Shown here one piece after another: positions 4,469 through 46,241 of a stretch of 46,241 nt of DNA. The position numbers and the translations under genes are program-made. Each line of letters begins with the position of its first letter. The stretch's first letter is position 1. The stretch is from positions 1 to 46,241 of the forward strand of contig JABGQL010000142.1 of assembly GCA_018648825.1 (NCBI GenBank), given 5' to 3'. The DNA is from Gammaproteobacteria bacterium. Lineage in GTDB: Bacteria; Pseudomonadota; Gammaproteobacteria; GCF-002020875. The notes under the pieces were generated by a model that saw only the letters and a program-made list of their open reading frames with translations, was not told the DNA's origin and made no database searches.

Positions 4469-5764
4469 ATGACGCTTTCTACGGATACCCTGTTACAGAT
4501 TGATCGAGACCATCTCTGGCACCCCTACACATCAATGACTCACCCACTAGCCGTCTATCCAGTGCGCAGTGCTGAAGGGGCGATATTGACACTGGAGGAT
4601 GGTCGGCAACTGATCGATGGTATGTCCTCTTGGTGGTCAGCGATTCATGGCTACAATGTCCCCGAAATCAATGCTGCGTTACAGCAGCAACTGTCTGACT
4701 TTTCTCATGTGATGTTTGGTGGGTTGACTCATCGCCCTGCGGTTGAGTTGGCTCAACGGCTGCTACAGCTTACCCCAGAACCACTACAACATATCTTCCT
4801 AGCAGACTCAGGCTCGATCTCGGTTGAGGTTGCGCTAAAGATGGCCCTGCAATACTGGATTGCATGCGGAAAAACCGATAAGTGCGAGATCGCTGTACTA
4901 CGTGGTGGTTATCATGGTGACACCTTTGCCACTATGGCACTGGCTGACCCAGAGAACGGTATGCATACCCTGTTTGGGAAACAGCTGACACCCCACCATT
5001 TTATTGATCGCCCCGCTGTGGCCTTTGCTGCTGAGTGGGATCAACAGGCTATCGAACCTTTGCGACAACAGTTGGAGCAGCACCATCAACAGTTGGCTGC
5101 ACTGATTTTAGAACCGATTGTACAGGGAGCTGGGGGGATGTATTTCTACCATCCTGAGTATCTCAAGCAGGCACGAGCGCTCTGTAGTGAATATGAGGTG
5201 CTATTGATCGCTGATGAGATTGCGACCGGATTCGGGCGCACTGGAAAATTGTTTGGATGTGATCATGCCAATGTTGTACCCGATATTCTCTGCATCGGTA
5301 AAGCACTCACTGGGGGTACGATGAGTCTGGCCGCCACGCTGACCACCAGTGAGGTCGCCGACACTATATCCAGCTACCAGAGCGGTGCATTGATGCATGG
5401 CCCTACGTTTATGGGTAACCCACTCGCCTGTAGTGCCGCCAATGCCAGTATTGGTCTGTTGCTCAATACCCCTTGGGAGAGCCGAATTCAGCAGATTGAG
5501 GATGGGTTACGTTGTGGGCTGGCTTCGTGTATCGAGCTGGAGTCGGTGGCTGAAGTGCGCATATTGGGTGCGATTGGTGTGGTTGAGATGAAACAGCCGG
5601 TTGATCTGGCACAGATACAACCCCTGTTGGTGGATCAGGGGGTCTGGGTACGCCCGTTTGGGAGGCTGATCTATCTGATGCCCCCCTATATTCTTGACCC
5701 AGAGGGGGTAAGTCGCCTCACACAGGGGGTGATTAAGGTGATACGTGCTATTTCAGCGGGATAG
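4469..5764 (+). CDS. bioA: Adenosylmethionine-8-amino-7-oxononanoate aminotransferase
   Basis: BioA is a PLP enzyme that uses S-adenosylmethionine as amino donor to convert 8-amino-7-oxononanoate (KAPA) to diaminopelargonic acid in biotin synthesis. The ORF track extends to 4376 inside yjbQ. The ATG at 4469 ([20 protein letters not shown]) gives the normal family N-terminus and 431 residues. Motifs: [40 protein letters not shown], the cofactor Asp in [14 protein letters not shown], and the PLP lysine in [11 protein letters not shown]. No other bio gene is nearby. Its last 17 bp overlap the 3' end of the convergent kinase gene on the minus strand. Confidence 0.95.
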
Positions 5765-7697
5765 CAAGGGTAACCACCACCCCTGAGCCATCGCTGCGGT
5801 TTTTAACATCAAACTCGCCATGGATTGCGTTGATATAGTTGCCTACGGCATGCAGCCCATTACCTCCCCCTTTCTCTTTAGTGGTAAAACCGGATTTGGC
5901 CACCTTGGGAAGAGTCTCTTTATCAATCCCCGTTCCATTATCGATGACTTGGATAATAAGCCAATTTTCATCCGTTTTACGCTGCTCTTGGTCGGCTCTG
6001 ATTACAATCTTCCCCTGCTGTCCGGCCTTCAGTGCATCAATACTGTTGCTCATCAAGTGGTCGATGGCCTGTAATAGCAAATTTCGAGAGAGCATTAAAT
6101 GGCCTACACTGTGTGATATCTGATGCTCTACTTCAATATTTTTCTCTTGTAACGCTTGCCCCAGCAGGGTCTCTACATCTTTTAGCAGGTTATCCAGTTC
6201 AAAGTCTTTACTACGCTTACTATCCCCTGCTGTCAGAGGCGTTGCCCGGATTACCGACTGAATATGCCCAGCCAAATTATTGATATCACCAATGGCTACA
6301 TTGACTTCACTGCTGATAATTGTATCAATGGAGTGACCACTTTTCTCAAGAACCAATGGGACTTTCTGCAAAGCGGGTCCAATGACTGAGGCATGCTCTC
6401 CCTGGCGAATCTCTTCAATCTCTTGCATCACATCACTGGAAAATCTGCCAAGCAGGGCAGAGATCTTTTTCAAATGCCCACTCTGCTGCTCAATTTTTAA
6501 CACTCCACCACGAATACCGGTGAGATTGTTTCCAATATTGTGCAATACATTTGCACTCATCTCATTCAGCCCCTCCTGGAAGGAGAGGAAGCGTTCCCCC
6601 TCTTCCGCCCGCTTCAACTCGCGCAGATCTTGTGCAGTGATGACGGTAAAGCTGCCCTGTTGATTGTTATCCTGAATACGAGAGGCCATCATCAGTACCG
6701 GTAGGCGCTCCCCTGTTTTGGTAAGCAGTAAGAACTCCTCTCCAGTCTGAATTTGCTGCTCGATAAGCTGATTCAGTCGCTGTTGATCATGCTCTTCATT
6801 GATCAGCATGTCGATATTCTGGTGTAGTAACAGCTCCTCATCATACCCCAGCAGGCGACTACTGGCTGGGTTGGTCATCTGAATATCCCCCCTCTCATCC
6901 ACTACCAATAGAATCTCTGACATCGATTGCAAGATACTCTGTAGGGATTCATTGGCATATTTCAGCTGCTGGGTACGCTTTATAACCTGTCCTTCCAGTG
7001 AGGCGTTGAGTCGATTGAGTTCATCGGTTGAGTGCTGCAGGGCCAGAGACATTTGATTGAAGTGTTGTGCTGTTTCAGCGATCTCGTCACTGCCTTTGAC
7101 TGGGATCTGCATCCCCAGCTGACCATTCGCAATTTCACTGGAGGCATGACGCAGCAGCTCTAGTTGTCGCACCAACCAAGAGCCTAAAAGAAAGGAGAAG
7201 AGTGCGGAGAGCACAATCTCAACCATTGCCAAGCTACTGGCCTTCCAAGTGGCTGCCTCCAGCTTCTGCTCCAGCTGTTTGGTGTTCAGCCCAACTTCGA
7301 CTCTGCCATAGAGCTGTTCTGACTCGATAATATCGGCATCGATATCAAACACGGCATCCGTGGCAGAGCCAAGAGAGTGGTCTGGCTCAAAGGGGCGAGC
7401 CAACTGTGTTGAGTCTCCCCCAGATGCCAGCAGCTGATCCTGATCGTAAACACGTACATAAACCAGCCCCTTATTCTTCATCAGCTCAGAAACGAAGGTC
7501 TCCAGTGTGGCCAAATCGTAAGAGAGCACTGCATCTTTTACCATTGAGGCAAACAGTCTGGAGGTGGTCTCTGCACGCTGAATTAACTGCTCTTCGCCAG
7601 AGCGACGCATCAGGTCCATGCTGTTCCAGACCAGAACCACCAGCAGGGTCACCTCAATCAGTGCCACCCCAAAAATGGTTTTTAGCCGAAACGACAT
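5748..7697 (-). CDS. Membrane sensor histidine kinase with HNIGN phosphoacceptor box (cassette A, kinase 1)
   Basis: This 649-residue kinase has TM1 at about residues 7-25, a periplasmic domain of about 130 residues, TM2 at about 155-176, and a HAMP linker (about 176-222). A coiled coil and PAS domain (about 250-360; [18 protein letters not shown]) follow, then the kinase core. The phosphoacceptor box is [16 protein letters not shown] with His386. Asn follows His where canonical HisKA has Glu or Asp, and there is no R-TP. The HATPase parts are N-box MSNSIDALK (about 550), G1 IDNGTGI (586-591), FTTKEKG, and a lid [12 protein letters not shown]. Spacing from His to N-box (about 165 residues) is longer than usual. 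The upstream neighbour 46 bp away is a PhnD-like binding protein, presumably its ligand carrier. Ligand and partner regulator are inferred, not shown. Confidence 0.9.
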
Positions 7698-7743
7698 GAG
7701 TGGTTAAAATGTCCTCTGTAACGGGTTTAGGGGAAGAACCTAT

Positions 7744-8583
7744 TTAAAGGTCATCTAACAGGTCAATTTTAAGTGCACGTACGTCATCCCAATCACTGTG
7801 CTGAGCCGCCTCAAACCCTTTGAAGCTGATCGCCTTGATTAAGGAGGTTGCCTGAGGGTCACTATTCATCGCCAATAAGATCTGTTGGACCTTATCAACG
7901 GTTGAAGAGTCAACCGATGGGTGTGCTGCAAAAGCGTGTGGCGTAAAAGTGTTGGAGGTCCAGAAAATCTTCAATTGATCACGAATCTCTGGCTCTGTGT
8001 TATTAAAGGTACGCACTACACCACCACCTGAGGGAAACAGCCCTTTGGCTACTGCGCGGTAGACAGAGTCATGTGATTTGACATACTTAGGGGTAAAATC
8101 GACACCAATCTCTTTAAGGTGGGCACGGGTCAGGATGCTCGCAGCAAATGCGGCTGGAGCGGGAAATGCCAGTTTGTTGCCATTAAGAGCCTTCAGGTCT
8201 GCCATAGTGGTGTCTTTACGAGCCACCATGATACCTTTGATTCTTTTGTTTTTCTGTTTGGCAAAGGCGCGATAGCCAGGCTGATCGCCAAATACGGTGT
8301 AATGGTAGGGGTTCATATATGCAAGGTCATACTCACCTTTGCTCAGACGACGCTCAAACTCTGGAATGTTTGGAGCTGTTTTGAAACGGATGGTAACGCC
8401 AGCCCGCTCTCCGATATACTGAAACAGTGGCCCCCATTTCTTTGCCAACTTTTTTGCCGCCTGTTGTGGCACAACACCGAAGGTCAATACTTGCTGATTT
8501 TCAGCCACTGAGGGCGGGCTAATGAGTAACAGACTCAAAAGAGCTAGGAAGGTTGGGCGTAGCAGTCTCATTCTAAAATTCAT
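7744..8583 (-). CDS. PhnD-like periplasmic phosphate/phosphonate-type binding protein (cassette A, 1)
   Basis: This is a 279-residue secreted binding protein of the PhnD-like superfamily. The signal peptide covers about residues 1-28 (FLALLSLLLISPPSVAENQ, cleavage after SVA). The mature start LTFGVVPQQAAKKLAKKWGPL and the hallmark YDLAYMNPYHYTVF are typical of PhnD-like proteins. The later LKALNGNKLAFPAPAAFAAS corresponds to the family's second-lobe loop. No ABC permease or ATPase gene is nearby. Instead the gene is followed after 46 bp by the HNIGN kinase at 5748-7697, so a sensory role (binding protein presenting ligand to a kinase) is likelier than uptake. The ligand cannot be read from sequence. 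A terminator-like hairpin lies just upstream of its start. Confidence 0.88.
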   Translation of the reverse strand: MNFRMRLLRPTFLALLSLLLISPPSVAENQQVLTFGVVPQQAAKKLAKKWGPLFQYIGERAGVTIRFKTAPNIPEFERRLSKGEYDLAYMNPYHYTVFGDQPGYRAFAKQKNKRIKGIMVARKDTTMADLKALNGNKLAFPAPAAFAASILTRAHLKEIGVDFTPKYVKSHDSVYRAVAKGLFPSGGGVVRTFNNTEPEIRDQLKIFWTSNTFTPHAFAAHPSVDSSTVDKVQQILLAMNSDPQATSLIKAISFKGFEAAQHSDWDDVRALKIDLLDDL

Positions 8584-8618
8584 AATGCTGTCTCGTACTC
8601 AGGAAGGTGAAGTCTCTT

Positions 8619-8645
8619 TAAAAACACTTATTGACCACTAAGTGT
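8619..8645 (-). terminator. Terminator/attenuator-like hairpin between kinase 2 and PhnD-like gene 1
   Basis: On the minus strand the sequence reads ACACTTA, an 8-base loop, TAAGTGT, then TTTTT: a perfect 7-bp stem with a short U-tract. It lies in the 164-bp gap after the kinase at 8748 and ends only about 36 bases before the ATG at 8583. That leaves little room for a complete promoter downstream, so it may act as a partial terminator or attenuator within cassette A. The rest of the gap shows nothing else I can support. Confidence 0.55.
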
Positions 8646-8747
8646 AATTTCTTAGAGTTGAGTCGCTATCTTAGGCCATTTCTATCAAAAGATATACCAT
8701 CTTGCTTCTATTTTCGCCCATCTGTGGCGTTACCACTGGCAATGGCT

Positions 8748-10688
8748 TTAACTTGATTTAGGCAGCCAAATCTCAAGAATTGCACCTTTTCCAACTCCAT
8801 AACTTTGCAGTGTTATGGTCCCCCCAAAACTCTTCACAAAATTACCGCTATTGTGAAGTCCTCGCCCCTGTTTATCTTGGTCTGCACTATGCCCTGCAGC
8901 AAACAGTTGGCTGGTATCCTCAGATTCAATACCGATGCCGTTATCCTCAATCAGTAACTTTAACCCCGGTTGTTTATTACGCACAGCGGTAGAGAAGCGG
9001 ATTGTGATTTGTCCATTCTGGGGCTGCTGGAGCCGAATGGCATCAATGGCATTCTGAACCAGTGCGGTTACAACCGGAAGCAGCTGGTTTCTGGGTAGAT
9101 AGGCCTCATTTAGGCCGGAGGCTACATCAATCTCGGTTGATATACTGTATTTCTGTAACTGAGGGGCCAGTAGTGACACCACCTCCTTAAAGAAAGAGTG
9201 TGGGTGAAAACGGGAAAGCTGAAAATGGGGTTTGCTGCTGTGCTCTTGTTGTCGAACAATCTCAGCAATATCCTGGAGCCGTAACTCCAACTGCTGTAGC
9301 GGTGTGGACCACTCCTTCTCTACAACCCCTACCAGCATATCTTCTGTGCGCTGTAATACGGTCTTCAACTGCTCTGGTGAGAGCTCTTCGACCTGCTCTG
9401 AAAGCTTGTGCAGTAGTGTACTTCCCTTGAGGACCATCTTCTCTCCATTTCTCATCTGGAAAGTTTTCCCACTCAACCCAGCAAGGATGTTGCCAATGTT
9501 ATGCATCATATTGGCTGATATCTCTGCAACCCCTGACTGGAAGGCGATCATCTGCTCTTTCTCCTCCAAGTCATGCTGACGGGTGATGTCCCGAATCAAT
9601 ACCAACTTATGATCTTCCTCTTCCATGGGGAGTGGAGCGAAAGAGAGTTCCAATAGTACTTTGCTCATATCACTATTGGAGAACAGCAGGCGATCACTGC
9701 ACAGCGCTGTTGAAGAGAGTAGTTGATCTACTTGTGGTATTAGTTCTGGTGGGAAGAGAGCATTGAGTATGACCCCTTCCAAAGTCTCTGCATAAGCAGG
9801 AAAAAGTGCTTTTGCAGCAGGGTTGCTTACCAGAATCTCCCCTTGTGGATTGACCACAAACAGTGCATCCCCCATATTCTCCATAATGGACGAGAGTTGA
9901 TCATTGCTCTTTTTTAGATCACGAGTACGCTCAATCACCTTATCTTCAAGAGTGGCCAGCAGCTGTTCACGCTCATCACGTAACTCTCTCTCTGCAGCCA
10001 TACTTTCAAGCAGTGCCATTACCCCTTCACAGAGGTGAATCAACTCTTTAGAGTTGTATGTTGCAGAGGTTTTCTCTACCTCTTCACTGTGTTCAACCTG
10101 TTGCAGATAGTCATCGACTTTACGGATTGGGCGTACTACCAGTAGATGGACCAGTATAAAGAGAACCAGAGCCAATAGTAAAACAGCAAAAACCAGCATG
10201 GTGGTAATCTGTTGGACTTGTTGCTCTAAGTTTTTAAAAGATTCGACCAGATCCCAGCGCAGGGCAATCGCACCGAAGCGCTCTCCTTCAAAAATAACCT
10301 CACGGTAGGTGGTCAGAATCAAATTTTGGTCCAACCCTTTAACAACAGCATCGGGATGGCATTCAGGTACATTTTCTCCCCAACGCAACAGAGGATGATT
10401 CTGGTAGTTACAGAACTCAGCGCCTAACAGGTTTGGGTGGATCTCAACCAAGCCACTGAGTGAGGTCTCAAGGATGGGGGTGTCTTCACTGACCAAGGCA
10501 TCCAACAATGTGGTAGAGAATAGTGCCGTACGTTTATCAATATCCTGCTGAATCTGCTGCTGCTGGTAGCTATGTAACAGCTGAGAGAGTGTGGTCGCCC
10601 CAATCCAGACCAGCACCAAACTGACACCCAACATTAACCAAAAGGTCTGGGTGCCAATAGACCAACTTTTAGGTTGAAAGAGTCTCAA
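8748..10688 (-). CDS. Membrane sensor histidine kinase with HNIGN phosphoacceptor box (cassette A, kinase 2)
   Basis: This 646-residue kinase has the same architecture as its neighbour: TM1 at about 15-33, a periplasmic domain about 34-160, TM2 at about 162-185, a HAMP-like linker, a coiled coil, and PAS (about 262-370; GDALFVVNPQGEILVSNPAA). The core box is EISANMMHNIGNILAGLSG with His396. The HATPase region has VQNAIDAI, IEDNGIGI and a lid reading GRGLHNSGNFV. The periplasmic domain contains two cysteines 17 residues apart (Cys93 and Cys110). It lies 27 bp downstream of the second PhnD-like gene, forming a binding-protein/kinase pair. The linker also carries DIAEIVRQQEHSS, a stretch seen in related form in the 1197-residue kinase. 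Confidence 0.9.
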   Translation of the reverse strand: MRLFQPKSWSIGTQTFWLMLGVSLVLVWIGATTLSQLLHSYQQQQIQQDIDKRTALFSTTLLDALVSEDTPILETSLSGLVEIHPNLLGAEFCNYQNHPLLRWGENVPECHPDAVVKGLDQNLILTTYREVIFEGERFGAIALRWDLVESFKNLEQQVQQITTMLVFAVLLLALVLFILVHLLVVRPIRKVDDYLQQVEHSEEVEKTSATYNSKELIHLCEGVMALLESMAAERELRDEREQLLATLEDKVIERTRDLKKSNDQLSSIMENMGDALFVVNPQGEILVSNPAAKALFPAYAETLEGVILNALFPPELIPQVDQLLSSTALCSDRLLFSNSDMSKVLLELSFAPLPMEEEDHKLVLIRDITRQHDLEEKEQMIAFQSGVAEISANMMHNIGNILAGLSGKTFQMRNGEKMVLKGSTLLHKLSEQVEELSPEQLKTVLQRTEDMLVGVVEKEWSTPLQQLELRLQDIAEIVRQQEHSSKPHFQLSRFHPHSFFKEVVSLLAPQLQKYSISTEIDVASGLNEAYLPRNQLLPVVTALVQNAIDAIRLQQPQNGQITIRFSTAVRNKQPGLKLLIEDNGIGIESEDTSQLFAAGHSADQDKQGRGLHNSGNFVKSFGGTITLQSYGVGKGAILEIWLPKSS

Positions 10689-10715
10689 GGAGCAAGGTGC
10701 AATCTACAAGTCTAC

Positions 10716-11579
10716 TTATTTAAAGAAGGCATCACTGTTGTGGATCGCCTTGCGCACAGAGTTATAGGCTGCATCATCCGCAGCTACAAAACCATCTTTC
10801 TTCAACACCTTTAGTGCTTTTTTGTCATCAAACTCTAGCAATACTTGAGTCAATGCCTGCTGTACCCGAGCAGAAAGCCCTTGTCGTGCAGCCCAAGCCT
10901 TGGTTGCTAGCTTAAATTCTTTAAGAATGCGGATTTTTCTGCCTTTCTTTACCAGTTTCTTGAAGGTGCTGGACTTAAGCGCGCCTGCAGCGTAGTCCCC
11001 TTTGGCAACCGCCTCTCCAACTTTATCGTGTCGTCCTAGGTAGCTATACCCTTTTAGCTCTTTATCATGAACCCCGGCTTCAGCCAGCAGTAGTTGGGCA
11101 AAGTAACGACCAATGGTTGACTGTTCGTTTCCAAAGGCGAAACGCTCCCCTTTTAATGCGCTCATGTCTTGAATTGCGCTGTCTGCATGGGCGATGATAT
11201 AACCGCTACGCATCTTCTTCCCTTTTTTACTCTCCATGGCAATCAGCTCTACTGCACTGTTTTTATCCTTAGCCAATACATAGGAGGCGGGCCCAAAACG
11301 GGCAAAGTCCACCTCACCATTTGCTAGCTTGTTGATGGCTTGGTCATAGGTTGGAGAGATGCGGGTGTGAATACGGACCTTCTCACCCAGCACTTTTTCC
11401 ATTCGAACCTCAATTTGGCTCAATAAGGGTCTGAACTGTGTTACCACTGCGGTTGCTTTATCTGAGGCGTATAGTCCAAAATTAAGAGCTAGATCGGCCT
11501 GTGCCGTTGTGGACACTGCAGTAAGCGATAGTGCTAACCCCAATGCCTTATTCAGCACCCTATTTCTAAAAGTGATCAC
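10716..11579 (-). CDS. PhnD-like periplasmic phosphate/phosphonate-type binding protein (cassette A, 2)
   Basis: This 287-residue protein has a signal peptide of about 28 residues (ALGLALSLTAVSTTAQAD). Mature features are LNFGLYASDKATAVVTQFRPLLSQIE, the ligand-lobe loop VDFARFGPASYVLA (PhnD family: D-A/R-x-G-P-x-Y), and LSALKGERFAFGNEQSTIGRYF, the hinge and second-lobe motif. It diverges from the other PhnD-like protein in this cassette, so the two probably recognise different ligands. It starts 3 bp after the response regulator stop and is followed after 27 bp by the kinase at 8748. No transporter genes accompany it, which favours a sensory role. Confidence 0.88.
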   Translation of the reverse strand: MITFRNRVLNKALGLALSLTAVSTTAQADLALNFGLYASDKATAVVTQFRPLLSQIEVRMEKVLGEKVRIHTRISPTYDQAINKLANGEVDFARFGPASYVLAKDKNSAVELIAMESKKGKKMRSGYIIAHADSAIQDMSALKGERFAFGNEQSTIGRYFAQLLLAEAGVHDKELKGYSYLGRHDKVGEAVAKGDYAAGALKSSTFKKLVKKGRKIRILKEFKLATKAWAARQGLSARVQQALTQVLLEFDDKKALKVLKKDGFVAADDAAYNSVRKAIHNSDAFFK

Positions 11580-11582
11580 AAA

Positions 11583-12152
11583 TTATGCTCCAGATTGTTG
11601 TTTACATTGACTAAGCTGTTGCTCTAGCTTGGCCAGTTTTTCAGTATGGATGATATCACGCGCCCAGTAATAGGAGAACATGCGGGCAACTTGAAACAGC
11701 TCGTCGGGGATAAATGGCTTTTTAAGGTAGACAAAATTATACCCCAAGTGGGTATAGATCTCATCTGTGGAGTAGTCTGCATAGGCGGAGACGATGGCAA
11801 TATTGGTCCGTGGATCAATACGTCGCAGCTGTCCACTACACTCTACCCCATCCATCCCCGGTGGCATACGCACATCAAGAAATACGGTAGAGAATGGCTC
11901 TCCTTCGTCAAATGCCTGCTTAAATAGAGAGATCGCCTCCTTTCCTGAGTTGGCTGTGACCAGCTCAAAGCTGTCTGCAGATTGATCAATGGCTTGTTTG
12001 CTCTCATCCTCTTCCAGAGAGAAACCATCGGTCAATAGTTGCATCAACTCATCAGTTTCAGAGTTTGCTGCAGTGACCAGAATCTCATGATAAGCCTCCA
12101 GCACATGAATATCATCGTCTACAACAAGGATTTTTCGGTTGGGTATGATCAT
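11583..12152 (-). CDS. Stand-alone response regulator with expanded REC domain
   Basis: This 189-residue single REC protein has no DNA-binding or enzymatic output. Acidic pocket VVDDD is at residues 11-14, phosphoacceptor Asp93 is in FLDVRMPPGMDG, the switch Ser is in IVSAYAD, and Lys144/145 is in LKKPF. The domain is longer than a normal receiver because about 35 residues are inserted between helix 1 (VLEAYHEIL) and strand 2 (FELVTANSG). The receiver in the REC-kinase fusion at 38043 has the same kind of insertion. A short helical tail (EKLAKLEQQLSQCKQQ) could mediate pairing. It is encoded between the HD-GYP-like gene (24 bp) and a PhnD-like gene (3 bp), so it is a likely target of the HNIGN kinases, by context only. 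Confidence 0.9.
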   Translation of the reverse strand: MIIPNRKILVVDDDIHVLEAYHEILVTAANSETDELMQLLTDGFSLEEDESKQAIDQSADSFELVTANSGKEAISLFKQAFDEGEPFSTVFLDVRMPPGMDGVECSGQLRRIDPRTNIAIVSAYADYSTDEIYTHLGYNFVYLKKPFIPDELFQVARMFSYYWARDIIHTEKLAKLEQQLSQCKQQSGA

Positions 12153-36736: not shown

Positions 36737-38076
36737 ACAGATCACTAGCCACCATTATTACTACAGCACTCACCCTGCTCTCCGCCCCCTTGCAAGCAGA
36801 GGATCTGCTAGAGGTGACCCACTATGCACTGGAACAAGATCAGCAGTTAGCCATATCTCGCTTGGACCTATCGATACAGCAGGAGCAACAGTATCAAGCA
36901 GGTGCCCTGCTACTCCCCGCCCTCTCCACTGCGGCCTCTTATAAGTATGGAGATAACTCTCGTTATGCAGACCAAAACCGCACTGCAGCCTATAGCTTCA
37001 ATCTGACCCAAAGCCTCTACCGTCCAGAACTGCAGAAACAGCTGGAGAAAACCGTGGTGTTAACCCAGGAGCGTGAGCTGGTGCTCAACCTGACCCAGCA
37101 ACAGCTGCTGTTGCGTGTAGCCAATGCCTATTTTGATCAACTCTCTGCGGAGGATTCTCTGCAATTAGCGCAACAAGAGCACAATGCGATTGCCGAACAG
37201 CTTAAACAGATCCGTCAAAAATATGATGTGGGCAGCGTATCAATGATTGATCTACAGGAGGTTCAGGCTCGTTTTGATTTGGTTAATGCACAGCAAATCT
37301 CTGCCAAGGCTGCCGTCAGTAATAGCCGTGAGCTGCTGTTTGAGATGGTCAACCGTGACCTCTCTGCATTGCAGCCCTTAACTACTGAGTTAACTACCGA
37401 GCTGCTATTAGCACCATCCGCCACGGATAGTGCTAATAGTGTAGAGCCATGGATTAAACAGGCGATCAACAACAATATCGAACTACAGCAGCTGGAGAAG
37501 CAGCTACGTTCTGCCACGTTATCTACCGAGATTGCTCAATCAGCCTACCACCCAAAAGTGGACCTGGTCGCTCAGCTGGCTAGCAGTGACAACAGCAATA
37601 GTAATTATGGTAGCGACAGTGACAGTTACTCCGTAGGGATTCAGGCCACATTGCCTCTGTTCAATGGCGGCTCTACCCGCTCAAAAGTGGCTCAGGCACG
37701 TCTCCAAAGAGTGCGTATCGAGGCCCAGCAAGAGCAGAAAAAACGTAGCACCATCAAGATCATCCGTTCCAACTATCTGGCGATTCAAACGGCTATAGAG
37801 CTGGTTAAGGCGCAGACTCAGGCGCAGCTCTCCGCACAGAGCGCCTTCCATGCCACCCGTAGTGGCATAGAGGTTGGAACACGCACCACCGCCGATCTGC
37901 TTGATGCGCAGAGAGAGCTTTATAGTACCCAGCGCGATCTGGCTCGTTCCAAATATGAGCTGATACTGGCTCAACTCAATCTGAAACAGTCTGCCGGAGT
38001 GTTGAGTTTGGCAGATATTGAGGGGGTGAATCGGTTATTAGACTACTCTCCCCTCAAGCATGTTGTAGGCAGATGA
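36733..38076 (+). CDS. TolC-family outer-membrane efflux channel
   Basis: This 447-residue protein has a signal peptide (about 1-22: IITTALTLLSAPLQAED) and two repeats of the TolC alpha-beta barrel fold (first repeat VTHYALEQDQQLAISRLDL and SLYRPELQKQLEKTVV; second IKQAINNNIELQQLEKQLRS and IQATLPLFNGGSTRSKVAQAR). The tail is YELILAQLNLKQSAGVLSLADIE. It completes the RND tripartite system. Its last 34 bp overlap the convergent REC-kinase gene. Confidence 0.95.
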   Translation: MNRSLATIITTALTLLSAPLQAEDLLEVTHYALEQDQQLAISRLDLSIQQEQQYQAGALLLPALSTAASYKYGDNSRYADQNRTAAYSFNLTQSLYRPELQKQLEKTVVLTQERELVLNLTQQQLLLRVANAYFDQLSAEDSLQLAQQEHNAIAEQLKQIRQKYDVGSVSMIDLQEVQARFDLVNAQQISAKAAVSNSRELLFEMVNRDLSALQPLTTELTTELLLAPSATDSANSVEPWIKQAINNNIELQQLEKQLRSATLSTEIAQSAYHPKVDLVAQLASSDNSNSNYGSDSDSYSVGIQATLPLFNGGSTRSKVAQARLQRVRIEAQQEQKKRSTIKIIRSNYLAIQTAIELVKAQTQAQLSAQSAFHATRSGIEVGTRTTADLLDAQRELYSTQRDLARSKYELILAQLNLKQSAGVLSLADIEGVNRLLDYSPLKHVVGR

Positions 38077-39428
38077 GCCCTAAAGCAGCGACCCACCCCA
38101 TTTTCACCCGCTTGAGCGATGATCTCCCCTTTTAGGGCGGCAACAAAATTGGCAATATTATGTAGGTCGGCTCCCCCTTCAGCAACATGCCCCCGCTGCA
38201 GTGAAGAGAATATACCCTCTTTCTCTTCTGCGCTGGAAAATCCGGGACCACTATCCGTCACTCGAACTTCAAAGGCACTTTGGGAGGGCTTGCTGTCGGC
38301 ATAAAGTGAGGGTGATGAGGCACCTAAACGAATAATGTCCAGCTTAATAAAGTGGTTAGATGGCAATGAGTCACTCTCTCGCACTAAATCCATAATCGAG
38401 TCGAGCGCACTTTTTAACAAGCTGACAATTAACTGTTGCAGGGGGTGTTTAGGCAGATGTAGCTGTTGCAAAGAGTCATCTACGTTGCACTCAAAACGAA
38501 CACCCAACCGAGTCATCACCCCCTCTAAAACCGCTACAATCTCGTCAACAACCTCTTTGATATCAAAATCACTACACCAAAATGGTGTCCCCTCTTTGAC
38601 TGAATTACGCTGATTCTCCAACATCACCTTCATATAACGGATGACCTCGTGTGTAGAGTCGAGATTGGAGGAGAAGTAGTGGTCGCCAAACTCTTTTAGG
38701 ACCAATCCAACCTGCGTATGGTCGGGCCCCTTCCCTCTCTTCTCTTCACTTGGGTTGGGATCAAGTAGCAGTGTACTTAACCCTTTAATCTGCTCACGTG
38801 CCATTTCCAGCTCCTGCAGGTAGTAATCAATTCCTGCAATGGCATTGCCAAAGTTGTGCAAAATAAAGGAGCTTACTTCAGAGACCCCTCCATGATAAGC
38901 CGCCTCCATCTCTGATTTTGATACGCTCTGTTCTAAGTCACGGTCTTTTTGCCAGCTCTGCGTCAAATTACGAGCAAGCTGAAAGATCTCTTCATTCACA
39001 AATGGTTTTTTCAACAGTAGTACATCGTGCTCCAGTACTTGGTGCAGCTCATTCGCAGTACGGTCAGCAAAAGCGGTGACAACAACGATATAGATACGAC
39101 TGTCTAGTTTACGCAACTGTCGTGCGGTCTCTAGCCCATCAATCCCCGGTGGCATGCGCATATCGATAAAGGCAAGTGGAAAGGGGTGTCCCTCCTGTAT
39201 CGCCTGACGGGATGCAGCAACCCCCTCTTCTCCTTGGTCTGCCGTGGTGACTAGAAACCCCTCCTTTTTCAGTTCTAACTCAGGAGCCGTCTCTGCTTCA
39301 GTTACATCACCAAAATAGTTAATAGGGGCTGTTGCGGCCTGAGGTTGCAGTATGGAGAGGTAGGACTCCAGTAGAACCTGATCATCATCAATTACCAGTA
39401 CTGGGATAGAATATTCACTCATTATCAT
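38043..39428 (-). CDS. REC-kinase fusion with expanded receiver and HNFGN box (cassette B)
   Basis: This 461-residue cytosolic protein has an N-terminal receiver with acidic pocket VIDDD, phosphoacceptor Asp89 in FIDMRMPPGIDG, and KKPF (140-143). About 30 residues are inserted between helix 1 and strand 2, just as in the cassette A regulator. The linker is helical, then the kinase box VSSFILHNFGNAIAGIDYY with His191, and HATPase-like sequence to DSGPGF and GGADLHNIANFVAAL. The N-box region (LLKSALDSI) and lid are degenerate (SLLKSALDS in place of N-NA-DA), so ATP binding may be weak. It overlaps the 1197-residue kinase by 4 bp upstream and the TolC-type gene by 34 bp at its 3' end. Confidence 0.87.
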   Translation of the reverse strand: MIMSEYSIPVLVIDDDQVLLESYLSILQPQAATAPINYFGDVTEAETAPELELKKEGFLVTTADQGEEGVAASRQAIQEGHPFPLAFIDMRMPPGIDGLETARQLRKLDSRIYIVVVTAFADRTANELHQVLEHDVLLLKKPFVNEEIFQLARNLTQSWQKDRDLEQSVSKSEMEAAYHGGVSEVSSFILHNFGNAIAGIDYYLQELEMAREQIKGLSTLLLDPNPSEEKRGKGPDHTQVGLVLKEFGDHYFSSNLDSTHEVIRYMKVMLENQRNSVKEGTPFWCSDFDIKEVVDEIVAVLEGVMTRLGVRFECNVDDSLQQLHLPKHPLQQLIVSLLKSALDSIMDLVRESDSLPSNHFIKLDIIRLGASSPSLYADSKPSQSAFEVRVTDSGPGFSSAEEKEGIFSSLQRGHVAEGGADLHNIANFVAALKGEIIAQAGENGVGRCFRAHLPTTCLRGE

Positions 39429-42400
39429 GCTCCTTTTGAGGTGACAGAGGGACTCTTCTCCCCGCTATTTGAGTTCATCAAAGCCTTCTTGGCTGAGAGC
39501 GGTAGCTCAATAACCATATGGGCTCCATGCCCCTCCTCTCTATTTTTAGCTAAAACCATACCATCGATTGACTGTACAAAGGTAGCTACAGAGTGCAGGC
39601 CAAAACCGGTACCCCGCTCTTTTGTAGTTTCACCTCGTTGGAAGATGCTCTTTAGTTTATTTGGGGCAATGCCACAGCCGTTATCAATGATCTCAATATT
39701 GAAACGATCGGGTTGAATCGGTTTTACCTGAATAGCCAATACCCCCTCAAAAGAGCTGATCTTTTCATTCTGCTCATTTCTATACTGCTGAATCGCCTCT
39801 CGACTGTTCTTGATGAAGTTGCCGATCATCTGCATGAATGGGTTATAAGGTAGCTCTACCTCATCGATCTCATTAGAGATCTGCATCTGAACTCGTACAT
39901 GATATTTTTGATTAGAGTCCTCCTGCATGCGAACTCCATCACGCAGTGCACGTTCTAATGAGAAGCTAGAGACGTAGAATGCACGCTCTGCTGAGAGTGA
40001 CTGCTGCAGACTAATAATATCTGCCATGTGGTCTGTGGTAGAGAGGATGGCCTCTCTGATCTTCTCTACCCCCTCTAGGCGCACCTCTCTCAGGTCGGTA
40101 ATGGCCATCTGTAACCCTTGTTGCAACCGTTTAGGATCATCCACCTTTAGCCCGGCCTCTAACGCCTGCTCCATCTCCTCTAAACGCTTCACCGATTGCC
40201 CCAAGCTCTGTGCACGATGCATCAAGCCACTCACCGCATTGCCAATATTGTGCAACACATTGGCCCCCATCTCTGCCAGTCCCCCTTGGTAGGCCGCTGT
40301 ACGCTCAGCCTGCTCCAGCTCATGCTGCTCGGTTACATCATTGATGACCAGTAGCTGTGACTGTTCGATCTCTTGTTCATTAGAAAAAAGCAGCGCCAGT
40401 GGCTGGTCCAATAACAACTCTGCCTCCACGTTGAGTGTCCGCTCTGCCTCTTTGTTAAGAAATTGGATATTGCTCCAGCCGTCTACCAGCAGTGCTGCAG
40501 GCATCTCCGGCTGCTCCAGAAGCGTGGGGTCAAGGGTTCCACTGTATTGGATCTCATCAGCCAGTGAGCGCTGCAAGGTGATGTCGTGCATCGACTCCAA
40601 AACGGCCCAGACCTCTCCATCTTGATTACGGATCGGGTAGTAGTTTAGGCTGACACGACGCTCTTGGCCTGAGTCGAGATGAAGGTGAACCCCCGATGTG
40701 GGCGTTTGGTAATTGACATCATGGATTGGGCAGGGGTGCTCCTCTTCCGTTTGTTCAATTTCCCAACAGGGCCTATCACTTCCATGAGAGACCTGATAAC
40801 AGCAGAGTGGTTTTCCTGTTTTATCAAGCACACCTTGCTCGGTAACCTGCAGATCAGGCATCCCCTGAAGGTAATTCTGGTTTGCTGCCAACAGTTGATG
40901 CTGCAGGTTAAACAGTGCAACTTTATGCACTTTGACCTGCAGCATCAATTGTTGAAGTTCTAATAGAGAGACCCCTTTCTGCGTGTGCTCGGCAATGCCA
41001 GCGATCTCGGATAGATCCTCAACCAATAGCAGGCACTGGTGGCCCCACATCTCTTCATGATAGAAAGGGATTAAACTTAATGAAAATTGCTTCTTCTCTC
41101 CAGTAGTGGTGGTCATGGGGATTGAGAGACCATGATGGGCCTGCTTTAGGCGGTGTCCGGGATAATACAGATATTTCCGCACATCACTGTCCAAGGTCAT
41201 TCCGAGACGCTCCATCTGTAGGTCATTCAGGCGAAAGTAAGCCTGACGGAGCAAGTTGAGGCGCTGGAGTCGATAACGTTTAACCACCTCCGTCTCAACT
41301 TCAATCGAGTACTCTTGATCGATCTGTTGTTGAGACTCCATCTGCTGCTGCAGTAGGGGGGGGATATGTAACTGTTGGAGTAGTTGTTGAGTGGTTTCTG
41401 GCTGCCCTTCTCTATACAACAACTTCATATGCCGATTCATGGTGGTGATCTTTCCCCCTTGAATGGTGGCAATTGCCTCTGGCATGGAGTGGATCACCCC
41501 TCGTACAAACTTGGTTTGATCATGAAGGTGACGGTGAGACTCTCTTAACTCTTTAATCTGATTTCGTATCTGTGAACTCATTCGATTTACACCGTTGGCC
41601 ATATCACGAAACAGATCATTTCTCTCCCCGGTATCCGCTTGCAGCTCTAACTCCCCCTCTGATATAGAGACAACGGTGGTTACCAACTCCATTGCTCGTG
41701 CAACCTTGTAACGCTCCTCCTCCTTGATATCATGAAGAATACTGGTTAGTGCACGTTGGCTATCCAGCAGTTTCTGCTGCTGCTCAACCACTTCACTGAT
41801 ATCTTTGGCCACAATAATCAAACTCTCCGGTTCATCCCCTCCCCCTTCAAGTAGAGAAACATTGACTAAAACAGGCACCTTTTCTCCTCCCTTTTTGCGG
41901 TACTGAGCCTTCAGGTTACGCAGTATGGTTCCCCCTTCGGCGGCCTCCAGATGCAGTTGTGCTTTAACCTCCCCCCAGTCACTGTCTGATAACAGTTGAC
42001 TCCGTTGTAGGTAGTGAATCAAGGGGTGATGCAGATCAACAGACTCAATTAAACGACCAAAAGGTGCCCCCAGTAATCGGTCGGCAGGGTAATCGAGTAG
42101 CTGAGAGGCTTCATGATTAAACAGTTTGATACGCCCTTTGATATCCACCTGAATCAGCGCTTCAGGGGTACTCTGTAACAACCGTTCTAGGCGGTTGTGC
42201 TCATGCTCAATGGTGGAGTGTCCTTGCCGGATTGCGGCTGACATCTCATTGAATGAGTCTGCAATGGCACCTAACTCATCCTGATAGGGCCACACCATCT
42301 CTACACTATAATCACCGGATGCAATTTGTTGTGCCAACAGGCGCAGCTGTTTAATCGGCAGAAAAAAGCGCACAGAGAGTACCCACAGCACCAGCAACAG

Positions 42401-43018
42401 CAACAAGATAAGTATAGTAACCATCAGAGAGGCAATATTGATTCTGCGCTCTCGGTTTTTGACCTCTTGCTCATAAGAGAGTGCATACTGCTGAATGATC
42501 TCTTCAATATCTTCTTCCAGAAGATGTCGCTGCGCATCAAACTGCTGCAACAGAAATCGACTCTGTTCCATCCATTTTAGAGGGTGCTCTTTAGTGGCTA
42601 ACAAACGAGCAGCGGTATTGAAAATTTCACGCATGTAGTTTCTAAAACTGGTACGCAGTAGCTCCAGCCGGGAGGCCACTCTATGGTCTAGTTTAGATGC
42701 TTCAACCAGTGCTTCAAGGGTATCCAGCTGCTTAAAAAAGAGTCCGGGTAACTTGGCGCTCTGCAGTAGATGCTTTTCACTACGTTCCACAACGCTGGAG
42801 AGTGCCAGTACCTGGATATTGAGTGCAGGACCTCCAAGATGATGAATAATCTCCAGAATTTCTGTGTGTACCCGTTGCTGCTGTTGTGCCTCACGATTAC
42901 CTTGTGAGAGTAGTAGCTGCCCTAAAAACATCCCCAGTAGTGAGATCACCCCTAAAAATAGCACTAGTGAGATAAGTATGGTGCGAACTGAGAGCTGAAA
43001 TTTAAACTGTTTTTTCAT
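39425..43018 (-). CDS. Large multi-PAS membrane histidine kinase with HNIGN box (cassette B)
   Basis: The 1197 residues hold TM1 at about 12-34, a helical periplasmic domain (about 35-190), TM2 at about 192-218, HAMP (SGDYSVEMVWPYQDELGAIADSFNEM), and PAS (STPEALIQVDIKGRIKLFNHEASQLL). Long helical and PAS-like regions follow, including one with a cysteine cluster (LCCYQVSHGSDRPCWEIEQTEEEHPCPIHDV), then another PAS. The core is [19 protein letters not shown] with His923, N-box GNFIKNSREAIQQ, G1 IDNGCGI, TTKERGTGFGLHSVATFV. A stretch ADIISLQQSLSAE sits between box and ATPase. It is preceded by a PstS-like binding protein (12 bp) and overlaps the REC-kinase fusion by 4 bp. Confidence 0.92.
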   Translation of the reverse strand: MKKQFKFQLSVRTILISLVLFLGVISLLGMFLGQLLLSQGNREAQQQQRVHTEILEIIHHLGGPALNIQVLALSSVVERSEKHLLQSAKLPGLFFKQLDTLEALVEASKLDHRVASRLELLRTSFRNYMREIFNTAARLLATKEHPLKWMEQSRFLLQQFDAQRHLLEEDIEEIIQQYALSYEQEVKNRERRINIASLMVTILILLLLLVLWVLSVRFFLPIKQLRLLAQQIASGDYSVEMVWPYQDELGAIADSFNEMSAAIRQGHSTIEHEHNRLERLLQSTPEALIQVDIKGRIKLFNHEASQLLDYPADRLLGAPFGRLIESVDLHHPLIHYLQRSQLLSDSDWGEVKAQLHLEAAEGGTILRNLKAQYRKKGGEKVPVLVNVSLLEGGGDEPESLIIVAKDISEVVEQQQKLLDSQRALTSILHDIKEEERYKVARAMELVTTVVSISEGELELQADTGERNDLFRDMANGVNRMSSQIRNQIKELRESHRHLHDQTKFVRGVIHSMPEAIATIQGGKITTMNRHMKLLYREGQPETTQQLLQQLHIPPLLQQQMESQQQIDQEYSIEVETEVVKRYRLQRLNLLRQAYFRLNDLQMERLGMTLDSDVRKYLYYPGHRLKQAHHGLSIPMTTTTGEKKQFSLSLIPFYHEEMWGHQCLLLVEDLSEIAGIAEHTQKGVSLLELQQLMLQVKVHKVALFNLQHQLLAANQNYLQGMPDLQVTEQGVLDKTGKPLCCYQVSHGSDRPCWEIEQTEEEHPCPIHDVNYQTPTSGVHLHLDSGQERRVSLNYYPIRNQDGEVWAVLESMHDITLQRSLADEIQYSGTLDPTLLEQPEMPAALLVDGWSNIQFLNKEAERTLNVEAELLLDQPLALLFSNEQEIEQSQLLVINDVTEQHELEQAERTAAYQGGLAEMGANVLHNIGNAVSGLMHRAQSLGQSVKRLEEMEQALEAGLKVDDPKRLQQGLQMAITDLREVRLEGVEKIREAILSTTDHMADIISLQQSLSAERAFYVSSFSLERALRDGVRMQEDSNQKYHVRVQMQISNEIDEVELPYNPFMQMIGNFIKNSREAIQQYRNEQNEKISSFEGVLAIQVKPIQPDRFNIEIIDNGCGIAPNKLKSIFQRGETTKERGTGFGLHSVATFVQSIDGMVLAKNREEGHGAHMVIELPLSAKKALMNSNSGEKSPSVTSKGA

Positions 43019-43030
43019 TATCAGGCTCTG

Positions 43031-43864
43031 CTACGGCAGTGGTGCATACCCCAGTGCTTTAACAATTTCCTGACCTTCCCGGCTCAACAAAAAATCAATA
43101 AAACGCTGCTCCATGACTCCCGGATTACCCAAAGTAACCAAGTTTAGTGGCCGCTTGCCCAACGGGTAGCGGTTACTCAATATATTGCTGAAAGTTGGCT
43201 CATAACCATCACTACGTAGCATTTTGACGGCTACTCCAAGAGATTGAGCATAACGGGTCGCGCCAATGGAGACAAAGGTGATGGCATCTGGGTCAGCCCC
43301 AACAAAGATCAGGGCCTCTACATTGGCCCCCACCTGATAGTCCTCTTTTAATGGCTCTCCCTCTAATCCAGCATACTGTTCAAGTTGCTTACGGATAGAG
43401 CGCCCCGGTTCCTTGACAACCGTGACTACGGGCCGCTCGCTCCCACCCAGCTGACTCCAGAGACGAACCTCTCCGGTCAGTAGTGATCTCAGTGTTTTTC
43501 GGTCCATCTCTTTTAATGGATTATCTTGATTCACCACTACGGCATTTCCATCAATCCCTATGGTGAAAGTTTGCAGTTCAGCCCCTAAAGCAAGTGGGCT
43601 ATCCCCCAGACTATTTAATTCACGGGAGACCATTGCAATACTGTTTTTCCCCTGTAGCAGATCTTCAATCCCTACATGGCTACCGCCTCCCCAGCTCTGA
43701 ACTTTACCCAAGCCCTTTGCCTCAAACTGCTCTGCTGCTTGACGTATAATGGGGAGAAAGGTGCTTGAACCACTGATTACAATGGCTTCTTGTGCAACCA
43801 CCATACTCCAACTGGTGAACAACAGTACACCGATCATTGACCTCTGTATCCAGTAGCGGCTCAT
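43031..43864 (-). CDS. PstS-like periplasmic phosphate-type binding protein (orphan)
   Basis: This 277-residue secreted protein has a signal peptide of about 25 residues (MIGVLLFTSWSMVVAQ). The PBP-like opening IVISGSSTFLPIIRQAAEQFEAKG, then SWGGGSHVGIEDLLQGKNSIAMVSRELN, is typical of PstS-like proteins (SGS loop and G-GS-G). Later EPGRSIRKQLEQY, and AITFVSIGATRYAQSLGV. No pstCAB genes accompany it. It lies between hemerythrin (7 bp) and the 1197-residue kinase (12 bp), so it is most likely a ligand carrier for that kinase. Ligand is inferred to be an oxyanion, not shown. Confidence 0.9.
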   Translation of the reverse strand: MSRYWIQRSMIGVLLFTSWSMVVAQEAIVISGSSTFLPIIRQAAEQFEAKGLGKVQSWGGGSHVGIEDLLQGKNSIAMVSRELNSLGDSPLALGAELQTFTIGIDGNAVVVNQDNPLKEMDRKTLRSLLTGEVRLWSQLGGSERPVVTVVKEPGRSIRKQLEQYAGLEGEPLKEDYQVGANVEALIFVGADPDAITFVSIGATRYAQSLGVAVKMLRSDGYEPTFSNILSNRYPLGKRPLNLVTLGNPGVMEQRFIDFLLSREGQEIVKALGYAPLP

Positions 43865-43871
43865 GAGTTAT

Positions 43872-44249
43872 TCAGCGCCTTCCTTCCACCCAGTGTACAT
43901 ATTCCATATCAGCCTTTTGAATATGCTCTACCAACCACTGCAGCAGAAAAGTGTGTAACGATTGTGGGTCAACAGCGTTCTCTTTCAATGCGGAAACTTG
44001 GTCACGCAGTTGTCGATGAAGCTTCTGGTGCGCCTCCAGTCCCGGCCACCCGCTAGTACGACAAAGCGCCTCTTCATGCTCAAAATGGGTCAAGGTATAC
44101 TCCATCAATCCATTGATAATTTGTGCCAGAGGTGCAGTACTCCCGTTATCCAAAGCCTGTTCTAGTGCATTGATCATATTGAATAGCTTTTGATGCTCAC
44201 GATCAATCATCTCTATTCCGGTTTTCACCTCTTCATTCCACTCAATCAT
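43872..44249 (-). CDS. Bacteriohemerythrin
   Basis: This 125-residue non-haem di-iron protein binds O2 in a four-helix bundle. Metal ligands are visible in order: REHQKLF, THFEHEEALC, EAHQKLHRQL, WLVEHIQKADMEYV, matching the H-HxxxE-HxxxH-HxxxxD pattern. Its start overlaps the stop of the Cache/PAS sensor by 4 bp and its stop is 7 bp before the PstS-like gene, so it is an integral part of cassette B. It may sense or deliver O2 or protect against NO. Confidence 0.95.
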   Translation of the reverse strand: MIEWNEEVKTGIEMIDREHQKLFNMINALEQALDNGSTAPLAQIINGLMEYTLTHFEHEEALCRTSGWPGLEAHQKLHRQLRDQVSALKENAVDPQSLHTFLLQWLVEHIQKADMEYVHWVEGRR

Positions 44250-46241
44250 AAACCCTCCATATTATAGGGAGCCACCTCTCCCAACTGCTCTTTCAGCTGG
44301 TTGATCTCTCTCTTCATCTCAATCACTCTATTTTCGCGCTCTACAAAGGCTTGATGGATCATCTCCATCTGCCCCATCTTCTCTTTCAGCTCATCACTGC
44401 GCTGCTGTAATTGCTTAGTGAGTTGTTCTCTTTCATCCAATTCCAGCTCGGTACGGCGCAATTGAGAAATGTCTTTGATAACTAAAATGACCTGCTGAAG
44501 CCTCTCCTCACTATCCTCATGCTCCCCTTGTACTGCAGTCTCATACACCACCTTTCCAGAGATCAGTACCGGCAGTGTTGAGCCGTTAGCCAATCGAAGT
44601 TGCCTCTCCATGCCCTGAAATGTGCCCTGCTCATCCGGATAGTCCAACAGTCGGCCAAATGGAGTGGGTTCAACTTGCAACCAATCCTCCACAGTAAAGG
44701 CATCTCGCATCACCACAACTACAACGGGTTCATTATCCCTCTGCAGACGATAGAGATTAAGCTGTACGGAGATCGGAGTGCCATCACCACAGCGTGCGGT
44801 CGCCACCTGATTCTCTCCAACCATTCGTGAGCGCCCTCTGGCAAGAAAACTGGTCCACAGTGTCGCATGTTGGTGCTGCATCTCCGCAGGGAGCAGTTGT
44901 TCGATATTCATCCCCTCCATACTCTTTTCAGAGTAGTGCAACAGTTGATGTGCTGCATCGTTGGCTATATCAATGGTTCCATCTTCCCGGCTGAGCCAAG
45001 TAGCAAGTGGGGCTTGATGGAGAATCTCTTCAAATTGCTGCGGATTCTGCTCCAACCGGGATTGCATATGCCCCCCAAGCATACGTGTCACCTCTGTTGA
45101 GAAGCGCCCTCTCCCCAGCTGTTGCTCCTCCTCATCAAAAAGCAGCTGGAGTGGTTTCCCCAACAGCTTGTCACTACTTACCCCCATGGTTTGAGTAACC
45201 GCACGGTTGACCTGTTTGATATCCCCCTGTTGGTCAACCACAACCAGTAGGTCATCCATTGCCGACAGCGCCTCTTCCACATTGTGCAGTGAATTTTTAC
45301 TCTGTTGCAGAGCGTGAGCCATCTGGTTAAAGGTGGCTGATAGTTGCCCCAACTCATCCAGACTATTGGTGTTAATTCTGGCTGTAAAGTCTCCTCTTCC
45401 AATAGCCCTAGCCATCCCCATCAAACGTTCAATGGGGCGTACAAAAAGCTTTGTAGAACGAACCACGATGGCAATAATGAGTAAAGTTAGTGTCAGCAGC
45501 ACTGCAAATACCATCTCGCGCAACGGGTCCAGAATGGCTGCTCCCGGAAGTGTTCGGATCAGGGTCCAGCTACGCTCATCATCATCAGGGTGAATTTGAA
45601 ACTGCTCTTTGGAAACTACTCGGTGTAGCGAGGGTACCCACTGAAAGGTGCCATCTGGGGGGATCACTTGCAGCGCCTCTTTGCTATCAATACCGTCAAT
45701 CCAATATTCAGGAAAACGATACTCTGGATGCTGAAGATCAAAACCAAAGCGCTTCTCTTTGTCGGGGTGATAGAGATACTCTTGCTGACTATTGAGCAAC
45801 CAAGCCTGACCACTCTCCAGTTTCAGTGCTTCCAGCATGCTGTTCATATCAATGTTGATCACAACAATCCCTCGTACCTCCTCCTGTGTACCGTATAGAG
45901 CCTTGGCAACCCGCAGCACAGGGCGATGAGGCTCTTCGATCTTACCATTTTCACGATTCAGATTGAGGGGGGAGAGGTAGTATTGATCAGCCGGCAGCTG
46001 AATTGCCTGTTTAAAGTAACCACGGTGTGATTTATCCTGCCGACTCTCTGTGGCGACAATTTGGACCGCCCCTTCTGCAAAGGAACGGTCCAGTCGCACC
46101 TGCTCTATTCCAAACTGGTCAATAAAACGAATTTGGAGGTAATTACCCTTCCCCTTCAACACCGCAGAGAACATGTTGACGACATTGTTGTACTGCAGCT
46201 GAGGCACTGTAAAATCTGCAGTCACTTGCTGGTCATAATGG
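44246..46241 (-). CDS. Cache/HAMP/PAS membrane sensor without kinase domain (N-terminus off window)
   Basis: The frame continues past the right edge (HYDQQ precedes the ORF-track GTG at 46225), so the N-terminus and TM1 are missing. Visible: a dCache-like periplasmic domain (LQIRFIDQFGIEQVRLD, GIVVINIDMNSML), TM at about 230-252 of the visible part, HAMP (RPIERLMGMARAIGRGDFTA), and at least three PAS domains (DLLVVVDQQGDIKQVNRA; FEEILHQAPLATWLSREDG; and one before VILVIKDISQ). The C-terminal coiled coil ends AFVERENRVIEMKREINQLKEQLG. The sequence stops there with no H-box or HATPase. It probably transmits its signal to the neighbouring HNIGN kinases by contact. Confidence 0.9.
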   Translation of the reverse strand, partial: HYDQQVTADFTVPQLQYNNVVNMFSAVLKGKGNYLQIRFIDQFGIEQVRLDRSFAEGAVQIVATESRQDKSHRGYFKQAIQLPADQYYLSPLNLNRENGKIEEPHRPVLRVAKALYGTQEEVRGIVVINIDMNSMLEALKLESGQAWLLNSQQEYLYHPDKEKRFGFDLQHPEYRFPEYWIDGIDSKEALQVIPPDGTFQWVPSLHRVVSKEQFQIHPDDDERSWTLIRTLPGAAILDPLREMVFAVLLTLTLLIIAIVVRSTKLFVRPIERLMGMARAIGRGDFTARINTNSLDELGQLSATFNQMAHALQQSKNSLHNVEEALSAMDDLLVVVDQQGDIKQVNRAVTQTMGVSSDKLLGKPLQLLFDEEEQQLGRGRFSTEVTRMLGGHMQSRLEQNPQQFEEILHQAPLATWLSREDGTIDIANDAAHQLLHYSEKSMEGMNIEQLLPAEMQHQHATLWTSFLARGRSRMVGENQVATARCGDGTPISVQLNLYRLQRDNEPVVVVVMRDAFTVEDWLQVEPTPFGRLLDYPDEQGTFQGMERQLRLANGSTLPVLISGKVVYETAVQGEHEDSEERLQQVILVIKDISQLRRTELELDEREQLTKQLQQRSDELKEKMGQMEMIHQAFVERENRVIEMKREINQLKEQLGEVAPYNMEGL

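Follow-up and report, generated by a model that had tools for sequence, protein, structure and literature searches.

A five-gene signaling operon at a contig end

The window analyzed here is one whole contig (G000:C31, 46,241 bp) of a 2.65-Mb gammaproteobacterial genome assembled in 168 contigs. Its minus strand carries, at 38043-46240, five collinear genes termed cassette B, which encode in order a membrane sensor, a bacteriohemerythrin, a PstS-like periplasmic binding protein, a histidine kinase with an HNIGN motif, and a fusion of a receiver (REC) to a histidine phosphotransfer (DHp) and an ATP-binding (CA) domain. Spacing along the genes is −4, 7, 12, and −4 bp, which agrees with a first-pass annotation that had grouped them into one unit with 4-bp overlaps and 7-12 bp gaps. 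As an operon, cassette B is genuine and complete, and it arranges known signaling parts in a new way. What is new is its last protein, which, as read from its sequence, keeps the receiver residues and His191 but loses ATP-site residues. We consider it reasonably probable that cassette B encodes a relay in which several inputs act on a kinase and its hybrid response regulator.

The sensor gene (44246..46240, minus strand) is represented in the window by its 3′ 664 codons, which encode a Cache module (HK_sensor/dCache), a transmembrane segment, HAMP, two PAS domains, and a C-terminal coil; no kinase domain was found by Pfam. The earlier description as a kinase-less Cache/PAS sensor thus stood for the domains, although the gene it referred to was cut at the contig end. 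The 5′ end of the gene runs off C31, and its first 86 codons sit on another contig, C12 (L145:8681-8992). A protein search showed that the first 18 residues of the sensor portion on C31 are repeated at the C12 end; the two contig ends overlap by an exact 55 bp (window 46187-46241 and L145:8938-8992), and the reading frame continues across them. Exact shared contig ends of this kind are typical of an assembly k-mer break. Joining C31 and C12 restores a sensor of 750 amino acids with its N-terminal, first membrane helix and two transmembrane helices in total. Because the overlap provides the missing N-terminus, the join, which is inferred from overlap and frame, makes cassette B a complete operon of five full genes and nothing more. 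The motif ENRVIEMK in the C-terminal coil was tried as a signature of the sensor and rejected, as one true copy was present among the loci compared.

The hemerythrin (43872..44249, minus strand; 125 amino acids) was confirmed as a bacteriohemerythrin, scoring 113.5 bits against NF033749 (cut-off 84); by alignment to DcrH-Hr (2avk), it keeps all seven diiron ligands (H19, H55, E59, H74, H78, H109, and D114). The next gene (43031..43864, minus strand; 277 amino acids) encodes a protein with a hydrophobic signal-type N-terminus that matched PBP_like_2 (PF12849, 4e-24), as expected from its earlier naming as an orphan PstS-like binding protein, and open reading frame inspection found no ABC transporter permease or ATPase genes in the operon or on the C12 flank. 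This protein fell short of the PstS family itself (TIGR02136, 126.4 bits vs. cut-off 206.6) and does not qualify as part of a phosphate ABC transporter PstSCAB. Alignments to 4gd5, 4q8r, and 1twy showed that its phosphate-loop motif is changed to KEPGRSIR from REDGSGTR (RExGSGTR-type); therefore, phosphate should not be assumed as the ligand. Its nearest relative (G005:C137, 49% identity) lies ~12 bp upstream of a hybrid kinase with the order HisKA-CA-REC-hemerythrin-Hpt, and the link of PstS-like protein, hemerythrin, and kinase is seen twice, in differing architectures. Hybrid kinases with hemerythrin behind the receiver were also observed at L117, L123, L124, L125, and L128, with the order HisKA-CA-REC-hemerythrin-Hpt where scanned (L117, L123).

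The same five genes could be divided into two signaling units on one transcript, in which the sensor and hemerythrin would handle O2 or redox state, and the PstS-like protein would belong with the kinase and hybrid response regulator, the hemerythrin serving O2 storage or delivery and not kinase input. Such a division would suit the nearest PstS relative, which belongs to another kinase type (a HisKA hybrid), the 16 hemerythrin places in the genome, most of which lie outside cassette B, and stand-alone hemerythrins known as O2 buffers or carriers (PMC11841059). However, we judge it rather unlikely, since the hemerythrin gene is bound to both neighbors by a 4-bp overlap on one side and a 7-bp gap on the other, since hemerythrin is fused to expanded receivers and to HNIGN kinases elsewhere, and since the 49%-identity PstS relative again adjoins a hemerythrin-bearing kinase.

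On the C12 side, the operon is preceded by ~370 bp without a long open reading frame and then by a desaturase-like gene; downstream, a convergent TolC-like gene follows (both named by inspection). Promoter and terminator scans gave no clear excess compared to shuffled sequences.

The receiver-DHp-CA fusion as a candidate pseudokinase

The HNIGN kinase gene (39425..43018, minus strand; 1197 amino acids) and the adjacent fusion gene (38043..39428, minus strand) share 4 bp. The kinase is laid out as a transmembrane helix, a periplasmic domain of ~165 amino acids, a second transmembrane helix, HAMP, PAS, a long linker, PAS, DHp, and CA, within which Pfam recognized HAMP-PAS-PAS-HATPase_c. The HNIGN motif is at residue 923, and the catalytic residues are intact (H923, N-box N1067/N1071, G1, and G2). 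HisKA (PF00512) or any other DHp model of Pfam matched neither the kinase nor the fusion; a profile of the HNxGN core still aligned with ZraS/FixL kinases over the CA domain and part of the DHp domain.

The first-pass annotation had described the last gene as a REC-kinase fusion. A receiver is indeed joined to an HNFGN DHp-CA module, but key ATP-site residues of that module are lost. The expanded receiver (PF00072, 6.8e-12) has its acid pair (D14), phospho-Asp D89, T118, and K140 all intact, the HNFGN box retains H191, and the G1 motif DSGPG is intact. In contrast, comparison with 21 positions invariant in 22 other cores revealed N180S, N184S, E187D, K246H, and G253D, by which the fusion loses both N-box Asn (to Ser), the lid Lys (to His), and a G2 Gly (to Asp). 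The second of these Asn residues, N184, which corresponds to the metal-binding N-box Asn of known kinases, was retained in 48 of the 48 other cores of the genus and lost in the fusion only. Moreover, the CA domain scored 17 bits against HATPase_c (cut-off 26.4) and is absent from the 134 PF02518 matches of the genome. The fusion branch was the longest in the tree of 49 kinase cores (2.66 vs. median 0.83), as relaxed kinase constraint would be expected to give.

An AlphaFold (AF2) model built from a 17-row alignment (mean predicted local distance difference test score 79) predicts a receiver, long DHp helices, and a CA-like fold, with very low confidence for the receiver insertion (residues 32-54). 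In the PDB, LvrB chains were the top six matches of this model (8vc9, E about 1e-15). Global template-modeling scores against the PDB matches were low (0.32-0.39; predicted score of the model itself, 0.49), probably owing to differing domain orientations in the modeled and known structures. Because both N-box Asn and a G2 Gly are lost, the fusion is most likely a pseudokinase. Judged on sequence only, it does not qualify as a functional histidine kinase acting as C-terminal effector; its sequence and AF2 model fit a DHp domain with a phosphorylatable His and a degenerate ATP site, of the ChpT/Spo0B type.

Alternatively, the fusion could be a working hybrid response regulator kinase like LvrB or NmpS, with an ATP site that tolerates the substitutions, so that cassette B would form an ordinary two-kinase cascade. 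LvrB has the same architecture, autophosphorylates, and is stimulated by D56 phosphorylation (PMC5863495), and the intact His191 and G1 motif, together with the intact ATP sites of the fusion's siblings at C21, G005, and G002, would agree with such a cascade. Nevertheless, we regard it as improbable, since both N-box Asn, the lid Lys, and the G2 Gly are altered together and the branch is so long. A sibling REC-DHp-CA protein in another cluster of the genome (L035, G000:C86:1-20000, at 7950-9308) showed the mirror-image loss, a DNIGN box in which Asp replaces the phospho-His, with the ATP site intact. Separately, a Magnetococcales HNIGN kinase (L163:7768-9684) beside an expanded receiver carries the N-box loss N184H and is an independent pseudokinase candidate.

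HNxGN kinases and expanded receivers as recurrent neighbors

The profile of 22 cores, applied with a threshold of E <= 1e-40, gave 34 HNxGN matches in the genome, two of which are halves of one gene; thus, 33 genes were counted, the fusion not included, and the earlier view of a rare kinase type did not hold for this genome. Signaling density is very high in this genome, whose 134 HATPase_c (PF02518) matches amount to about one per 20 kb. Counts of HNxGN kinases in relatives range from 0 to 18, two genomes of the same genus being without any at this threshold. Outside the genus, matches at the same threshold occurred in 14 other sampled gammaproteobacterial genomes (about 5% of 274); the nearest were Saanich Inlet metagenome genomes, and named records included Magnetococcales, Betaproteobacteria, Tepidiphilus, Legionella, and a Bdellovibrionales bacterium. 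A literature search on HNIGN, HNVGN, and HNxGN found no paper in the library consulted.

Expanded receivers are also numerous in the genome. The spacing from the acid-pair Asp to the phospho-Asp is 74 residues in the receiver of cassette B and 80 in that of cassette A, the other kinase cassette of the window, whereas it is about 44 in ordinary receivers such as CheY and PhoB, so the receiver expansion noted earlier is real. Receivers in the loci compared fell in two spacing groups, few at 40-50 and most at 65-84, and the insertion in receivers partnered with HNxGN kinases is roughly 30 residues. The cluster L035 holds several HNxGN kinases and expanded receivers together.

Adjacency was scored when an expanded receiver lay within two genes of a kinase on the same strand. 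Such a neighbor was present for 13 of the 19 HNxGN kinases outside the genus; H-NOX loci, which served as controls, contained 5 ordinary HExNN kinases, none of which had one (Fisher p = 0.011). Inside the genus, a B-type receiver adjoined the kinase in all 6 cases from the B-type clade and in none of the 10 that involved other kinases, with groups that were picked once the trees had been seen. The order of a kinase followed by a REC-kinase recurs at C86, C21, G001:C73, G005:C25, and G002:C32, and a Bdellovibrionales locus (L152) has a 1789-amino acid HNIGN kinase followed by REC-PAS-HisKA-CA. HNxGN kinases and expanded receivers recur as neighbors across Gammaproteobacteria, Magnetococcales, and Bdellovibrionales, and stand-alone sensors often accompany them.

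Binding-protein genes are among these sensors. PhnD-like genes lie beside HNxGN kinases twice in the window, at L044, and, in several other genomes, at L154, L162, L169, and L204; at the last (G163:C32), from a gammaproteobacterium of another family, PhnD, an HNIGN kinase, and an expanded receiver, the parts of cassette A, stand in a row. A PstS-like gene adjoins an HNxGN kinase in the window and at L085 (the same locus as L167), where the kinase is HNVGN and the overlap is 4 bp, and other binding-protein families do so at L039, L046, and L057. Hemerythrin is fused to expanded receivers beside HNIGN kinases at C146 (twice) and at C206 of G002, and in Magnetococcales (L155:9239-10915) directly to an HNIGN kinase with an expanded-receiver gene adjacent.

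Cassettes A and B had been described as two paralogous copies, and duplication of one rare system would account for a binding protein, an HNIGN kinase, and an expanded receiver in both. Trees of the 49 kinase cores and of 54 receivers spoke strongly against it, and by the refutation criterion that the first-pass annotation had itself set, the paralogy claim fails. Forcing the A and B kinases into one clade cost 158 log units (approximately unbiased test, p-AU 2.85e-6), and forcing the receivers cost 76 log units (p-AU 2.59e-6); among kinases and receivers alike, A and B each had many nearer relatives in the genome than the other cassette. Long branches, above all that of the fusion, make exact placements in these trees uncertain, and the refutation holds within their limits. 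The binding proteins also belong to different families (PF12974 in A, PF12849 in B), 33 such kinases share the genome, and cassette A (receiver-PhnD-kinase) has its own counterpart in G002 (L092; 72% PhnD identity). A common origin of A and B finds no support, and duplication is very improbable. The wider notion of a modular system survives in altered form: the kinase/expanded-receiver pair recurs beyond the genus with binding-protein and hemerythrin genes beside it, but A and B have no specific shared ancestry. At window 5748-12152, two PhnD-HNIGN kinase units lie back to back, the second of them being the one with the G002 counterpart.

The proposed relay and related systems

Among known systems, cassette B comes closest to the kinase/hybrid-response-regulator pairs LvrA/LvrB and NmpU/NmpS, together with a periplasmic input like AioX. 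LvrA/LvrB of Leptospira (8vc9, PMC5863495) likewise consists of a kinase and an adjacent REC-DHp-CA protein without a DNA-binding domain; LvrB was the best full-length structural match of the fusion, and a branched output has been proposed. However, LvrB autophosphorylates on H161, whereas the fusion is without the N-box and G2 residues, and LvrA is soluble and itself a hybrid, whereas the cassette B kinase is an HNxGN membrane protein with a binding protein, a hemerythrin, and a Cache sensor beside it. In NmpRSTU of Myxococcus xanthus (PMC11841059), a gas-sensing first kinase, NmpU, similarly phosphorylates the receiver of a REC-HisKA-CA protein, NmpS, in response to an oxygen-related input. 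The Nmp sensor is a heme protoglobin inside the kinase, and its output is the dedicated NtrC-like NmpR; in contrast, the diiron hemerythrin of cassette B is encoded by its own gene, the operon has no gene for an output, and its second kinase is degenerate. The phosphotransferases ChpT and Spo0B (PMC9981736) also combine a DHp domain bearing a phosphorylatable His with a functionally degenerate CA domain and act between receivers, but the ChpT described there is a DHp-CA protein that lacks a receiver, which the fusion carries in the same polypeptide. On the input side, the arsenite system AioXSR (PMC7533571) has a stand-alone periplasmic binding protein gene beside the sensor kinase, AioX serving as kinase input; AioR binds DNA, whereas cassette B is without a DNA-binding protein and adds a hemerythrin and a second sensor.

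We propose that, once it has bound a small anion, the binding protein would dock on the periplasmic domain of the kinase, the Cache sensor, or both. The hemerythrin would act on the cytoplasmic PAS region of either the sensor or the kinase as a reporter of O2 or redox state, for which hemerythrin-regulated enzymes are a precedent (PMC8846402). The kinase would autophosphorylate at H923 and, by analogy, should then phosphorylate D89 of the fusion, because the first kinase phosphorylates the receiver of its partner in LvrA-LvrB (PMC5863495) and NmpU-NmpS (PMC11841059). Since the fusion very probably cannot use ATP, it would not autophosphorylate; the phosphoryl group of D89 may instead pass first to H191 and from there to response regulators whose genes lie elsewhere, as in ChpT, or phosphorylated D89 may alter the binding of the fusion to other regulators as a scaffold switch. 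Output would run via other regulators in either case, because no DNA-binding or enzymatic output is encoded in the operon.

As a more tentative extension, which we hold to be possible but doubtful, HNxGN kinases and receivers expanded by ~30 residues may be a co-evolving partner class fed by stand-alone sensors; cassette B would then be a coincidence detector in which oxyanion and O2/redox inputs meet on one kinase, and its receiver-pseudokinase a single-chain Asp-to-His phosphotransferase branching to other regulators. Several points weigh against the proposed relay. The exact five-gene combination was encountered once only, and which proteins the hemerythrin and binding protein contact is guesswork. 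The N-box loss makes autokinase activity unlikely, which falls short of proof of absence. The adjacency control set was small, at five kinases, and co-divergence of kinases and receivers was not significant by the Mantel test (r 0.23-0.25, p 0.066; with only this genome included, r 0.17, p 0.18), a result that is only suggestive of pairing.

The interest of cassette B centers on the receiver-pseudokinase fusion, of which it is a compact case, as it would be of oxygen-type and anion-type inputs that converge on a single kinase, and on the HNxGN/expanded-receiver partnership. The latter points to a recurring partner class without a name, whose DHp domain no Pfam model recognizes; it has expanded to about 33 kinases in this 2.65-Mb genome, which is related to bacteria of the Saanich Inlet oxygen-minimum zone.

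Stand-alone sensors beside kinases are also known from NosP-NahK-NarR and H-NOX-kinase units (PMC11237717, PMC12329717). Within this genus, FIST genes precede HNxGN kinases at L047, L082, and L086, and an H-NOX gene, an HNIGN kinase, and an expanded receiver stand in a row at L040:4074-6529, which suggests nitric oxide-sensing versions of the kinase/receiver unit. An HNOB-kinase-receiver unit at C6 had prompted the idea that HNxGN is the general H-NOX-associated kinase type, which was rejected. Among H-NOX-adjacent kinases in other Gammaproteobacteria, 5 of the 6 readable ones were HExNN and only that of G046 was HNIGN; therefore, HNxGN kinases and H-NOX kinases are not simply one and the same class. 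At L049, the neighbor of the HNxGN kinase is an MHYT gene.

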